From a virus: a DNA stretch of 31,319 bases. Both the position numbers and the translations under genes were made by a program. The stretch lies in the IMG/VR virus record IMGVR_UViG_3300042935_003511, positions 1 through 31,319 of that record; one strand, 5' to 3'. Below the pieces are notes generated by a model. That model was not told where the DNA came from. It saw only the letters and a list, made by a program, of their open reading frames with translations, and did not search any database. The number at the start of each line of letters is the position of its first letter. Positions within the stretch are counted from its first letter, which is position 1. Below are positions 20,850-23,767 of this stretch, piece after piece.

Positions 20850-21089
20850 TCAAGCTGCAGCCTTATTTGTTACCAGCTCAGGCCAGACCTGAGCCCAGTC
20901 GTCACGAAGATCAACTCGGCAAACTTTTCGATCCGTTACCAGCTCAAGAGCAGCAGCAACTTTTGCGCCCGCCGTCTTGTATCCATAGGCAATGGCCTGC
21001 AAGTAGGAGCGAGTACTCCCCGTCTTACTAATTTCATCGTCCGTAGCAACTCTAAGCCAGTCCAAGAGCTTCTGATTTCTTGGCCTCAT
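20850..21089 (-). CDS. YdaS/Cro-like DNA-binding protein (79 aa)
   Basis: First gene of the leftward arm and divergent from the repressor, the place of cro. The sequence MRPRNQKLLDWLRVATDDEISKTGSTRSYLQAIAYGYKTAG is an HTH of the YdaS/Cro type, and VCRVDLRDDWAQVWPEL at the end is the conserved tail of that family. It should bind operators in 21093-21195 and turn repressor synthesis down. Start ATG 21089 is preferred to the GTG three bases upstream because AAGGAG is seven bases before it. A YdaS-type toxin partner is not seen. Confidence 0.8.
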   Translation of the reverse strand: MRPRNQKLLDWLRVATDDEISKTGSTRSYLQAIAYGYKTAGAKVAAALELVTDRKVCRVDLRDDWAQVWPELVTNKAAA

Positions 21090-21092
21090 CAC

Positions 21093-21195
21093 GAGACTCC
21101 TTCGCTAATTCGCGGCCAGTATTTACCACTAGGTAAATAACAGTCAACCCCTTTTGGAAATTTACTAGCGCACACCAAAAGGTAATTATTCGGAT
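21093..21195. promoter_or_regulatory. Immunity operator/promoter region between cro-like gene and repressor
   Basis: An 18-base perfect palindrome ATTTACC-ACTA-GGTAAAT at 21121-21138 lies inside the leftward promoter candidate: minus-strand TTGACT (21147-21142), spacer 18, AATACT. A weaker site, ACC-AAAA-GGTAATT, ends at 21187 near the repressor start. For the repressor, TTTACT (21161-21166) and TAATTA (21183-21188) are possible elements. If so, transcription begins close to ATG 21196 and the mRNA is leaderless, as for lambda cI from PRM. Confidence 0.6.
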
Positions 21196-21888
21196 ATGGA
21201 CATGTACGAAATTCGACGCCGCAACTTGAACGCAATCCTTGAAGCCAAATTTAATGGCAACAAGGCCGCTTTAGCTTCATCTATTGACAGGCAACCGAGC
21301 TACATCTCCCGCTGCCTGATTACAGGAAACGCCCATCACAAGACTATCGGCGAGAAATTTGCACGTCATGTAGAGCAGTCACTTTCCCTGCCCGCCTGCG
21401 CCTTGGACGCCGAGCCGGGTATCGACTCCCCTTTACACATGTATTTGCTCGGGACACCTCTCGCCACACTTGAAGAAGGCCCTACTTTTTCTCGACCTTT
21501 TCGCCGCACAAAAATAGTAGGAACCGCTCAATTGGGCCCAGAAGGATATTGGGATGCGATCGCCACAACCGATGGCTGGCTAGACGTGCCCAGCAGCGAC
21601 CCGGACGCCTACTCGCTGCGCGTGCGAGGCGACTCGATGGCCCCGGCCATTCGCAGCGGCTGGGTGGTGTGGTGCGAGCCTAACCACGCACTAATCCCCA
21701 GCGAATACGTGATGGTGCGCCGCACTAACGGTGAGTGCATGGTTAAGGAACTGCTCTACGCCAACGCCGATGAAGTCAGCCTCATGGCAGTCAATGACGG
21801 CTACGGCCGCCTAACTATCCCGCGTGAAGACGTCGAGCAAATTCATCATGTGGGCGGCATCGTGCCACCAAGCAAGATCAAGTACTGA
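21196..21888 (+). CDS. CI-like repressor with S24 peptidase domain (230 aa)
   Basis: Maintains lysogeny and is inactivated by self-cleavage after DNA damage. Residues 1-65 form an HTH (NLNAILEAKFNGNKAALASSIDRQPSYIS). The C-terminal S24 domain has Ser147 in RVRGDSMAP and Lys184 in CMVKELL as catalytic pair, about 37 residues apart as expected. The usual Ala-Gly cleavage site is not obvious; a GTAQLGPEGYW segment at 109-119 is in the right area. No good ribosome site is seen before ATG 21196; a second Met is at codon 3. Next gene follows after six bases. Confidence 0.9.
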   Translation: MDMYEIRRRNLNAILEAKFNGNKAALASSIDRQPSYISRCLITGNAHHKTIGEKFARHVEQSLSLPACALDAEPGIDSPLHMYLLGTPLATLEEGPTFSRPFRRTKIVGTAQLGPEGYWDAIATTDGWLDVPSSDPDAYSLRVRGDSMAPAIRSGWVVWCEPNHALIPSEYVMVRRTNGECMVKELLYANADEVSLMAVNDGYGRLTIPREDVEQIHHVGGIVPPSKIKY

Positions 21889-21894
21889 GGCCAT

Positions 21895-22194
21895 ATGAGC
21901 ATAGAGACCCCACCGAACTCGGGCGAAGCGGTTCGGAAACTAACAACCGCGCAAGTGCAAGCCGCCGTCACTGCAATGGGGCATGACACACCATGCGCAA
22001 CCTGCCACTCCCCTGACTGGATTTTAGCCACCATAAACGACACACCGACCATTCTAAATCTCACCGTGGTTAACGCACCTGGCATGGCGCAATGGTGCTT
22101 TAACATGACGTGCCGCCAGTGCGGCTCGATGAAACTCATCGCCGCTGCCTACGTTGAAATGCACGTTACAAAAGAGGCTCAATCCGATGTCTGA
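21895..22194 (+). CDS. Small zinc-ribbon-like protein cotranscribed with repressor (99 aa)
   Basis: Unrecognised. A helix (LTTAQVQAAVTAMG) precedes a ribbon with Cys34-x2-Cys37 and Cys73-x2-Cys76, thirty-five residues apart, enclosing a beta segment (DTPTILNLTVVNA). It starts six bases after the repressor stop and overlaps the next gene by eight bases, so it is likely expressed in lysogens. Genes here in other phages often give immunity to other phages, but no such function can be read from the sequence. Confidence 0.65.
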   Translation: MSIETPPNSGEAVRKLTTAQVQAAVTAMGHDTPCATCHSPDWILATINDTPTILNLTVVNAPGMAQWCFNMTCRQCGSMKLIAAAYVEMHVTKEAQSDV

Positions 22195-22540
22195 CAACGT
22201 AGCGCTGTTCCCAGATATCCACCCTGATAGCGGTAAACGTGACAATCGGGGCGGCGGAGACAATAATGGGTCAGGCACACCGCCGGGAGGAAGTAACGTG
22301 GAAGCTAGGGTCGCAACGCTTGAGAAGCTATCGACAGATATTCAACTCAGGATGGTTCGGATTGAGACCCGCCTTGAGTCGGTAGAGTCGAATATGGCCA
22401 CTCACAGCGATATAGCTAACCTCAAAACCGATATGGCAAACCATCAGACAAGCCTCATTAAGTGGTTTATCGCAACATCCTTCGCCATGACAGGCGTCGC
22501 AACCACAATAGCGTTTGGCCTCGCACGGCTACTGAAGTAA
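22187..22540 (+). CDS. Coiled-coil membrane protein cotranscribed with repressor (117 aa)
   Basis: Unrecognised in detail; resembles XhlA-like small phage membrane proteins. A Gly/Asn/Asp-rich disordered N-terminus (residues 1-37) is followed by a heptad coiled coil (about 38-90, VATLEKLSTDIQLRMVRIETRLESVESNM) and a C-terminal transmembrane helix (about 92-112) with a basic end. ATG 22187 is chosen over the upstream frame start because GAGG lies about ten bases before it. It ends the repressor operon. A tail-anchored topology is expected. Lysogenic-conversion or exclusion functions would be possible; not shown. Confidence 0.65.
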   Translation: MSDNVALFPDIHPDSGKRDNRGGGDNNGSGTPPGGSNVEARVATLEKLSTDIQLRMVRIETRLESVESNMATHSDIANLKTDMANHQTSLIKWFIATSFAMTGVATTIAFGLARLLK

Positions 22541-22558
22541 CGCCACACACGCCCACCG

Positions 22559-22584
22559 AACCCCGCCACCGAGCGGGGTTTTTT
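22559..22584 (+). terminator. Terminator of the repressor operon
   Basis: AACCCCGC (22559-22566) and GCGGGGTT (22573-22580) pair around CACCGA, followed by TTTT. It lies 19 bases after the coiled-coil gene and before the second operator region, so it separates the lysogenic operon from the rightward early operon. Confidence 0.8.
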
Positions 22585-22601: not shown

Positions 22602-22683
22602 ATTTACCCGAAGGTGTTGATCTTTATATTTACCATCAGGTAAATTCAATCCGTACCCATTACCACGGTTACGGAGCGATCCC
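22602..22683 (+). promoter_or_regulatory. Rightward early promoter with repressor operators
   Basis: The palindrome ATTTACC-ATCA-GGTAAAT at 22628-22645 has the same arms as the leftward operator at 21121-21138. A half site ATTTACC-CGAA-GGT starts at 22602. Promoter candidate: TTGATC (22617-22622), spacer 18, TAAATT, with the operator covering the -10 area. It leads the operon of 22684-28689. A lambda pL/oL equivalent, by inference. Confidence 0.65.
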
Positions 22684-22869
22684 ATGAGAGCACAGCACAG
22701 CAACACCCCCTGCAAGGTGTTCATTCACCCAGCAGTGAGCAACCCCAACCGCATCTTCGAAGTGCGCCGCTTGGCGCGTGATGGCGACTGCGAGTTTAAA
22801 ACTGCGACCCGCGCACTGACCCACCGTCCGGCCACACAAGGCCCATGGGACGGAGGGAGCGCAGCATGA
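22684..22869 (+). CDS. Small early protein (61 aa)
   Basis: First gene of the rightward arm. Basic, about 61 residues, with KVFIHPAVSNPNRIFEVRRLARDGD as its main ordered part and Arg-rich C-terminus; no motif recognised. ATG 22684 has GGAG upstream. Its TGA overlaps the next ATG (ATGA). Confidence 0.6.
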   Translation: MRAQHSNTPCKVFIHPAVSNPNRIFEVRRLARDGDCEFKTATRALTHRPATQGPWDGGSAA

Positions 22870-23192
22870 ACGAAGCCATCGAACTTCTGCTGCTACAGAT
22901 CGCCACCATGTGCCTGCACATCACCGCAAAAGGCCAATTCCTTGCGGATTGTGACCTTACCGCCCATACCACCACGGTATACGTCTGCATCCGCAAGCCT
23001 GATAGCGACTTCACCTCCAGCGAGAGCATTAAAGCAGGGGTAATACTGCGCATAGATGCCCCATACGACCTACAGCGCCGGGACTGGCAGCCACCAGACG
23101 AACAGCAAGCACAGTGCGAGCGGGAGCTACAGGCCGTTATCAATCAGCTGCAGCCCTACCTGCACACCGAACAGCTGGAGGCCGCAGCATGA
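22866..23192 (+). CDS. Early phage protein of unknown function (108 aa)
   Basis: Starts MNEAIELLLLQIATMCLHIT, a hydrophobic helix, then a beta-rich segment (TTTVYVCIRKPDSDF, AGVILRIDAPYD) and a Gln/Glu-rich C-terminal helix. Not recognised. The upstream frame start at 22845 is rejected in favour of ATG 22866, which has GGGAG and overlaps the previous stop. Stop overlaps the kinase ATG. Confidence 0.6.
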   Translation: MNEAIELLLLQIATMCLHITAKGQFLADCDLTAHTTTVYVCIRKPDSDFTSSESIKAGVILRIDAPYDLQRRDWQPPDEQQAQCERELQAVINQLQPYLHTEQLEAAA

Positions 23193-23767
23193 AACAGATC
23201 CTTATCGGCCTGCACGGCCTCGCCCGCACCGGCAAAGACACCGCGGCTAACTACCTCGCCAGCCAATACGCCTTTATTGCCTACGCCTTTGCTGCACCGC
23301 TTAAAACGGCCCTGCAGTTGATGTTCAACCTGACCGAAGAGCAGCTCAACGGCGCACTCAAAGAAGTACCACTGGCCAACATCGGCAAATCCCCGCGTGA
23401 GCTGATGCAACTACTCGGCACCGAGTGGGGCCGCCACCTGGTACACAACGACCTATGGCTGCTGCTGGCCCGCCAGCACCTCGACGCCGCGCTGGAGTTC
23501 AACAACGAATGGCTGCAGGGCTTTGTTATCAGCGACGTGCGCTTTGAGAATGAGGCCACGTGGATTCGCGCCCAAGGCGGCACCGTGCTGCACCTGCTGC
23601 GCCCAGACGCTGCGGCGGTAAACCCGCACATCAGCGAGGCCGGCGTTGCTATTCACGATAACGACTTTGTTATCCATAACGACGCCGATCTGCCGCACCT
23701 CTATGCCCAGCTGGATCACATGATGCTGATCCTCACGCGCCGCCAAGCCTTGCGCTCAGCAGCCTGA
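23189..23767 (+). CDS. Deoxynucleoside monophosphate kinase (192 aa)
   Basis: Phosphorylates dNMPs (T4 gp1-like), raising dNTP supply for phage DNA. From ATG 23189: LIGLHGLARTGKDTAA gives the P-loop G10-x4-G-K-D-T typical of this family, followed by ALKTALQLMFNLTEEQL-like segment and LGTEWGRHLVHNDLWLL and VISDVRFENEATWIR, all familiar family blocks. Length 192 is normal. The longer frame to 23114 overlaps the previous gene and is rejected. ATGA overlap gives coupling. Confidence 0.85.
   Translation: MKQILIGLHGLARTGKDTAANYLASQYAFIAYAFAAPLKTALQLMFNLTEEQLNGALKEVPLANIGKSPRELMQLLGTEWGRHLVHNDLWLLLARQHLDAALEFNNEWLQGFVISDVRFENEATWIRAQGGTVLHLLRPDAAAVNPHISEAGVAIHDNDFVIHNDADLPHLYAQLDHMMLILTRRQALRSAA

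Follow-up and report, generated by a model that had tools for sequence, protein, structure and literature searches.

Behind the CI-like repressor of an IMG/VR virus record lies a two-gene module that is real and recurrent; its first gene is inherited together with the N-terminal peptide encoded by its second gene, and independently of the remainder of that second gene. The window analysed here is the whole 31,319-base IMG/VR virus record IMGVR_UViG_3300042935_003511, whose lysogeny region lies on the plus strand. By position and plan the module is of the prophage two-component kind, and no sequence link to known members of that kind was found. In our preferred explanation, in which we place about as much belief as doubt, the pair is lysogenic cargo in which a small head protein docks on the N-terminal peptide of an exchangeable membrane stalk, most likely protecting the lysogen.

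Organization of the repressor unit

The CI-like repressor (21196-21888, plus strand) carries an S24 peptidase domain (Peptidase_S24, 1e-14; PHROG 4, 1e-19) and is 44% identical to the CI of phage PS-1. Divergent from it, on the minus strand, is a small Cro-like regulator (20853-21092; PHROG 10248, 8e-7; PHROG 35, transcriptional repressor, 3e-4). Six nucleotides after the repressor stop, gene 1 runs on the plus strand from an ATG at 21895 to a stop at 22194 and encodes a small zinc-ribbon-like protein of 99 aa with two Cys pairs, CATC and CRQC. Gene 2 overlaps it by 8 nt and extends on the same strand from an ATG at 22187 to a stop at 22540 (117 aa). Shine-Dalgarno-like sequences can be read ahead of both starts, GAGG at 21887-21890 for gene 1 and AGAGG at 22173-22177 for gene 2. 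The unit is closed on the plus strand by an intrinsic terminator, a hairpin at 22558-22581 followed by a T run. The folding energy of the hairpin is -15.8 kcal/mol, shuffled sequences average -9.24 (SD 2.23), and 1 of 200 shuffles does as well; the hairpin was absent from a simple hairpin scan and was picked up by a looser one. The preliminary description had reported a four-Cys protein and a coiled-coil membrane protein behind the repressor, with a short gap, an overlap and a terminator, and every detail open to checking proved correct. Judging from this layout, the repressor, gene 1 and gene 2 would share one transcript.

Two operator-like palindromes stand either side of the three-gene unit: TTTACCACTAGGTAAA at 21122-21137, between the cro-like gene and the repressor, and TTTACCATCAGGTAAA at 22629-22644, ahead of the rightward operon. 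Both match TTTACCNNNNGGTAAA perfectly and are the only perfect TTTACC-N4-GGTAAA copies in the window; with up to two mismatches, TTTACCNNNNGGTAAA occurs three times in the window against 0.48 expected, and 1 of 100 shuffles had as many. The two palindromes are probably the operators of the repressor. In phage lambda, cI, rexA and rexB lie between operators, and the window resembles that immunity region in having three genes between two operator-like sites. Past the second palindrome, the rightward operon opens with a gene for a 61-aa protein (22684-22866; PHROG 35204, 9e-11) and contains a deoxynucleoside monophosphate kinase gene (23189-23764; PF21448, 8e-30).

Families, architecture and distribution of the two proteins

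The preliminary description could name a family for neither gene, and profile searches agree with it: the best families are PHROG 4293 for gene 1 and PHROG 6136 for gene 2, both sequence clusters of unknown function, and neither protein has a convincing Pfam, NCBIfam or PADLOC match. PHROG 4293 was matched by 12 of 12 gene 1 homologues at 0.01 (best 5.7e-8; window member 0.0092). The Pfam and NCBIfam searches gave only scattered zinc-ribbon models among the homologues, and in PADLOC-DB 2.0.0 four models were each matched by one of the 12 members (best 0.0048), which we took for chance Cys-rich matches. An AlphaFold2 model of gene 1 (pLDDT 87) has two helices, a beta ribbon with the four Cys and a C-terminal helix; the strands span residues 42-44, 53-58, 61-73 and 79-83, and two CxxC knuckles sit on the ribbon. 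Cys 34, 37, 73 and 76 are invariant across 15 sequences, and together with the predicted ribbon they point to a putative zinc site. Among solved structures, Foldseek gave no relative of gene 1 at E < 0.001, and the best VIA-align Z, 2.9 (NrdR and RNA polymerase ribbons), was rejected as too weak to be evidence of kinship. The top viral model, A0A0H5ARH7 (E 0.0095), has 87 aa, the same length as the gene 1 protein of PS-1.

Gene 2 proteins consist, in order, of an N-terminal peptide, a Gly-rich and usually Pro-containing linker, a coiled coil and a membrane helix. All 11 members scanned match PHROG 6136 (best 1.3e-31; window 2.7e-14), and likewise PHROG 3556 and PHROG 6324; the PADLOC-DB 2.0.0 comparison gave one unconvincing match (1 of 11 members, 0.03). 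Helices are predicted at residues 36-69 and 73-115 with low confidence (pLDDT 58), and the first third is disordered. The most hydrophobic stretch, residues 94-112, has a mean Kyte-Doolittle value of 1.58, is rich in small residues and leaves five residues after it; no second hydrophobic stretch was seen by eye. In 39 of 39 gene 2 homologues the best hydrophobic stretch exceeds 1.4 and lies within 21 residues of the C-terminus. A likeness to CCDC90-like proteins (PF07798), which also combine a coiled coil with a C-terminal membrane helix, was rejected at 17.4 bits against a gathering cut-off of 33.5 bits. A natural fusion of genes 1 and 2 was looked for by way of PHROG 3556, which spans 276 positions; the matches, in 11 of 149 genomes, fell in the gene 2 part or ran across a stop codon, and we claim no fusion.

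The same topology is found in XhlA and coiled-coil holin-like proteins, which are lysis-time genes, and the holin family PHROG 689 is matched by 8 of 11 gene 2 homologues (best 1.3e-6); a role as a lysis accessory nevertheless merits hardly any credence, since gene 2 lies in the repressor unit and not in a lysis or late operon, families of no assigned function match better, and Pfam XhlA appears for 3 of 11 homologues at an unconvincing best E of 0.012, with no match for the window protein.

The gene pair recurs mainly behind repressors of Pseudomonas prophages. Searches with the window genes gave no matches by tblastn against isolated phages or in single-sequence scans of IMG/VR; relatives surfaced only by way of the repressor, which led to Pseudomonas phage PS-1 and to P. 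aeruginosa plasmid record CP137442, both with the same pair behind their repressors. The four-Cys gene of the plasmid (2567-2902 of locus L007) is missing from the PLSDB gene table. Profile scans then yielded two partly coinciding sets of viral-contig loci, 14 and 18 in number, together with 3 loci from genome contigs. We curated 39 loci by hand, including the gene 2 starts: all have the homologous genes in this order, and the two genes range from overlapping by 23 nt to lying 1 nt apart (overlaps of 1 to 17 nt in ten loci measured), and a terminator-like hairpin follows in 35. An S24-type repressor lies within 1000 nt upstream of 27 of the 39 pairs, and one of the other 12 has it at 1008 nt; the link with lysogeny is thus not absolute. 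Nine pairs were compared for dN/dS. The five closest gave values under 0.3 for gene 1 and gene 2 alike; in the remaining four, dS was saturated or undefined, or the genes were too dissimilar to be assessed.

PHROG 6136 was found at 1e-6 in 20 of 249 Pseudomonas genomes, and gene 1 in 10 of 199 genomes in one search and in 13 of 298 in another. A phylum-wide draw gave any gene 2 match in 10 of 398 genomes, two of which share the plan: L134 has a helical head behind an S24-type repressor, and in L136 the head is of the four-Cys type and follows a reading frame, missed by the repressor profile, that we take for a repressor by position only. Weak gene 2 matches in 102 of 398 genomes were rejected as a count of modules, many being solitary chromosomal genes. 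Few isolated phages carry relatives: PS-1, three Enterobacter phages (a short gene 2 match) and D14O (gene 1). A literature search by title and abstract opening, with subscription journals mostly outside its coverage, returned no description of this pair.

Several loci depart from the common plan. Four pairs of helical head and stalk (L046, L071, L075, L078) occupy a chromosomal place that has no repressor; two of them match at 92% along 8 kb of surrounding sequence, and porin-like and aminotransferase-like genes adjoin by eye. Such repressor-less copies are maintained on chromosomes, at dN/dS values below 0.3. Solitary gene 2 relatives, with no partner seen, adjoin a sensor-kinase gene in Pseudomonas chromosomes (L052, L053, L056, L058 and L085, and further L089-L093 and L098-L103), and others stand beside different genes. 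In L073, L074 and L077, beside a GGDEF-like gene, the coiled coil of the gene 2 relative is extended by VDKRFDA-type heptad repeats. A gene of about 79 aa lies between repressor and head in L041 (849-1085), L051 (818-1054) and L067 (812-1051, in reverse-complement coordinates); it belongs to PHROG 6388 in the first two, looks alike by eye in the third, and is a possible third module member. In L011/L012 and L022/L025, near-identical gene pairs follow repressors with exchanged DNA-binding halves, so that immunity specificity swaps separately from the pair.

Co-inheritance of heads and peptides

Three unrelated gene 1 families precede one family of stalks. By head, the 39 curated pairs comprise 25 four-Cys proteins, 10 short helical proteins and 4 of PHROG 28590 (three were scanned and all match). 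To compare the parts, 36 pairs were used, L078, L071 and L105 being left out as near copies. Gene 1 similarity correlates with similarity of the N-terminal ~23 residues of gene 2 (r 0.697, 0 of 5000 permutations) and hardly with that of the coiled coil (r 0.063, 420 of 5000) or the membrane tail (r 0.019, 1488 of 5000), while coiled coil and tail co-vary with each other (r 0.594); the pairs share ancestry, and these permutation figures, like the Fisher figures, serve as guides. Within the four-Cys pairs alone (n = 24) the coefficients are 0.590 for the peptide, 0.083 for the coil and 0.017 for the tail. Helical-head pairs (n = 8) do not show a clean separation of head and stalk, for within that group head similarity follows the tail (0.611, 33 of 5000) and the coil (0.414) as well.

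Adjacency was controlled in 21 pairs with a gap of less than 100 nt between repressor and gene 1. The last 30 residues of the repressor do not follow the neighbouring gene 1 (r 0.086, 583 of 5000), whereas residues 1-30 of gene 1 do follow the peptide (r 0.640, 0 of 5000), even though no other part of gene 1 lies farther from it. A regional comparison of module pairs shows that relatedness changes at or just before the linker. In L010 and L020, for example, 95 of 102 residues are common after the linker and 7 of 16 aligned residues before it, and the heads are unlike. In the window, the first ~23 codons of gene 2 (22187-22255, plus strand), which by this co-variation are proposed to encode a partner-specific docking peptide, are followed by the Gly/Pro linker at 22256-22300, an approximate cassette boundary placed from the regional identities of eight module pairs.

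A second sign of pairing is a peptide Trp, in most cases with a basic residue next to it on the C-terminal side, which accompanies a longer Cys-to-Trp spacing at the first Cys knuckle of gene 1. The association is 8/9 against 0/14 in a first set and 5/5 against 1/11 in a second, L105 and L034 being left out of the table; it was first noticed in the 25 four-Cys pairs, and the spacing rule took its present form once both sets were known, so the second set is no blind test of it. The pairs that follow it include L174 and L177, whose membrane protein is of another kind; L067 is the one counterexample.

A search that started from gene 1 gave 25 matches, of which 8 had already been read from the gene 2 side and the other 17 were read (two of these, L172 and L179, had also been read from that side). 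In 16 of the 17 loci the next gene overlaps and encodes a membrane helix; L160 has no partner. By eye, seven of these 16 partners are stalks of the window kind, seven are of a second kind, whose coiled coil starts near a conserved 'DITREEF'-like stretch, and two are of a third kind, in which the membrane helix comes first and the coil after it. An S24-type repressor lies upstream in 10 of the 17. Behind the repressor of phage D14O stand a four-Cys head and a stalk of the second kind.

The earlier proposal of a two-part system tied to the repressor gains support from the conserved order, overlap and terminator, and from the way gene 1 and the gene 2 peptide are inherited together. Co-inheritance could also stem in part from recombination at the conserved linker instead of binding; a recombination hot spot there is compatible with the data, and docking is what we infer from them. 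The counterexample L067 and the partnerless gene 1 of L160 speak against the preferred explanation.

Possible roles of the pair

Under the preferred explanation, the two genes would ride as cargo in an immunity region of the lambda type. In the lysogen they would be expressed from the transcript of the repressor, with its operators on both sides and the terminator shutting them off from the rightward operon. Gene 2 would stand in the inner membrane as an oligomeric coiled-coil stalk, its N-terminus facing the cytoplasm. Gene 1 would be a small recognition domain in the cytoplasm; by docking on the ~23 N-terminal residues of gene 2 it would be presented at the membrane. Head and matching peptide would make up one exchangeable cassette and the stalk another, with several unrelated heads combined with at least three kinds of stalk. 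The job of the pair would most likely be protection of the lysogen against other phages, by exclusion at the membrane or by recognition of a product of infection. A fast-changing head on a generic membrane stalk, placed in the immunity region, suggests conflict with other phages. The preliminary description had guessed at superinfection exclusion or toxicity from position; we predict, as the most likely function, superinfection exclusion or abortive infection. Against the preferred explanation stand the PADLOC searches, which gave no convincing match, and the 12 curated pairs whose upstream 1000 nt hold no repressor.

By description and not by sequence, the pair resembles Butters gp30/gp31, Sbash gp30/gp31 and CarolAnn gp43/gp44, two-component prophage defences of mycobacterial and Gordonia phages that combine one soluble protein with one membrane protein. 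For these pairs, the excerpts of the sources consulted do not mention what is seen here, the exchange of heads on a common stalk. The exclusion genes of Fc02 were set aside, as they lie upstream of the repressor in another phage (PMC9936078, in part).

The main rival is a Rex-like abortive infection, in which gene 1 would sense an infecting phage and open or oligomerise gene 2, whose membrane helix would depolarise the cell; we consider this unlikely, and membership of RexAB is not claimed. Prophage P1 of P. putida has, behind CI, a soluble protein and a membrane protein that act as a membrane-damaging effector system (PMC12894663, in part). Lambda rexAB and P1 rexAB occupy the same place as our pair, in a lysogenic unit behind a CI-like repressor (directly behind it in the window, within 1000 nt in the 27 homologous pairs), and the division into soluble sensor and membrane effector would be as in RexAB (same excerpts of PMC12894663). 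The small residues of the membrane helix and the holin PHROG matches would fit as well. However, P. putida RexB has four membrane helices according to those excerpts (PMC12894663), whereas gene 2, with its single hydrophobic stretch at 94-112 of 117 aa, has one apparent helix and is not polytopic. Moreover, the head shows no co-variation with the membrane part, for which unrelated kinds are substituted, one of them with its helix preceding the coil; such free exchange favours an anchor over a gated pore. No RexA-like family was among the profile matches of gene 1, and the fold search gave only weak zinc ribbons, RexA itself being outside the comparison. With no sequence link found, the module differs from RexAB in its 99-aa four-Cys gene 1, its one-helix gene 2 and its cassette-swapped partners. 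In P1, PP_3897 and PP_3898 lie between the CI-like repressor and rexAB, and deletion of each left the plating of phages 7B and 9A unchanged, as given in the consulted part of the report (PMC12894663); if these two genes are module members, the defence reading is weaker for phages 7B and 9A, which would count against a general defence role.

Sequestration, or a toxin-antitoxin arrangement, would make gene 1 a toxic or antiviral effector silenced at the membrane by gene 2, as has been suggested for Butters gp30/gp31, and we find it distinctly improbable. Effector/antidote-type pairs usually combine a disordered peptide that binds a small folded domain with overlapping genes and partner swapping, and the proposed peptide-domain plan, the gene overlap and the exchange of partners in the present pair would be of this sort. 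In the precedent, the membrane protein gp31 of Butters is proposed to hold the cytosolic effector gp30 (PMC12894663 and PMC7542560, both in part). The profile searches (Pfam, NCBIfam, PADLOC) convincingly matched no toxin family, however; three unrelated gene 1 families would all need to be toxic, and solitary gene 2 relatives exist on chromosomes.

Those solitary relatives, where they adjoin sensor kinases, and the chromosomal pairs without a repressor instead speak for a host-modifying pair outside phage defence, for example in membrane-localised regulation or lysogenic conversion, that is also kept on chromosomes. We see only a slim chance of this, as the place behind the repressor in most loci and the rapid change of heads resemble conflict and not housekeeping.

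Returning to a protective cargo with docked heads, a further and bolder step can be put forward tentatively, with more doubt than belief: a plug-and-socket immunity, in which at least three unrelated heads would be matched with at least three kinds of stalk through partner-specific docking peptides, and new anti-phage specificities would arise by exchange of cassettes at the Gly/Pro linker. The pairing and the peptide code do not feature in the descriptions of PHROG 4293 and PHROG 6136. Genes expressed beside the repressor contribute importantly to the phage resistance that prophages confer, and for many of them a function has yet to be assigned; in the present case two orphan genes become a testable system through their position, their constant plan of two proteins and a pairing code that can be read. 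The apparent joint swapping of head and peptide suggests a mix-and-match device by which a dormant phage guards its host cell.
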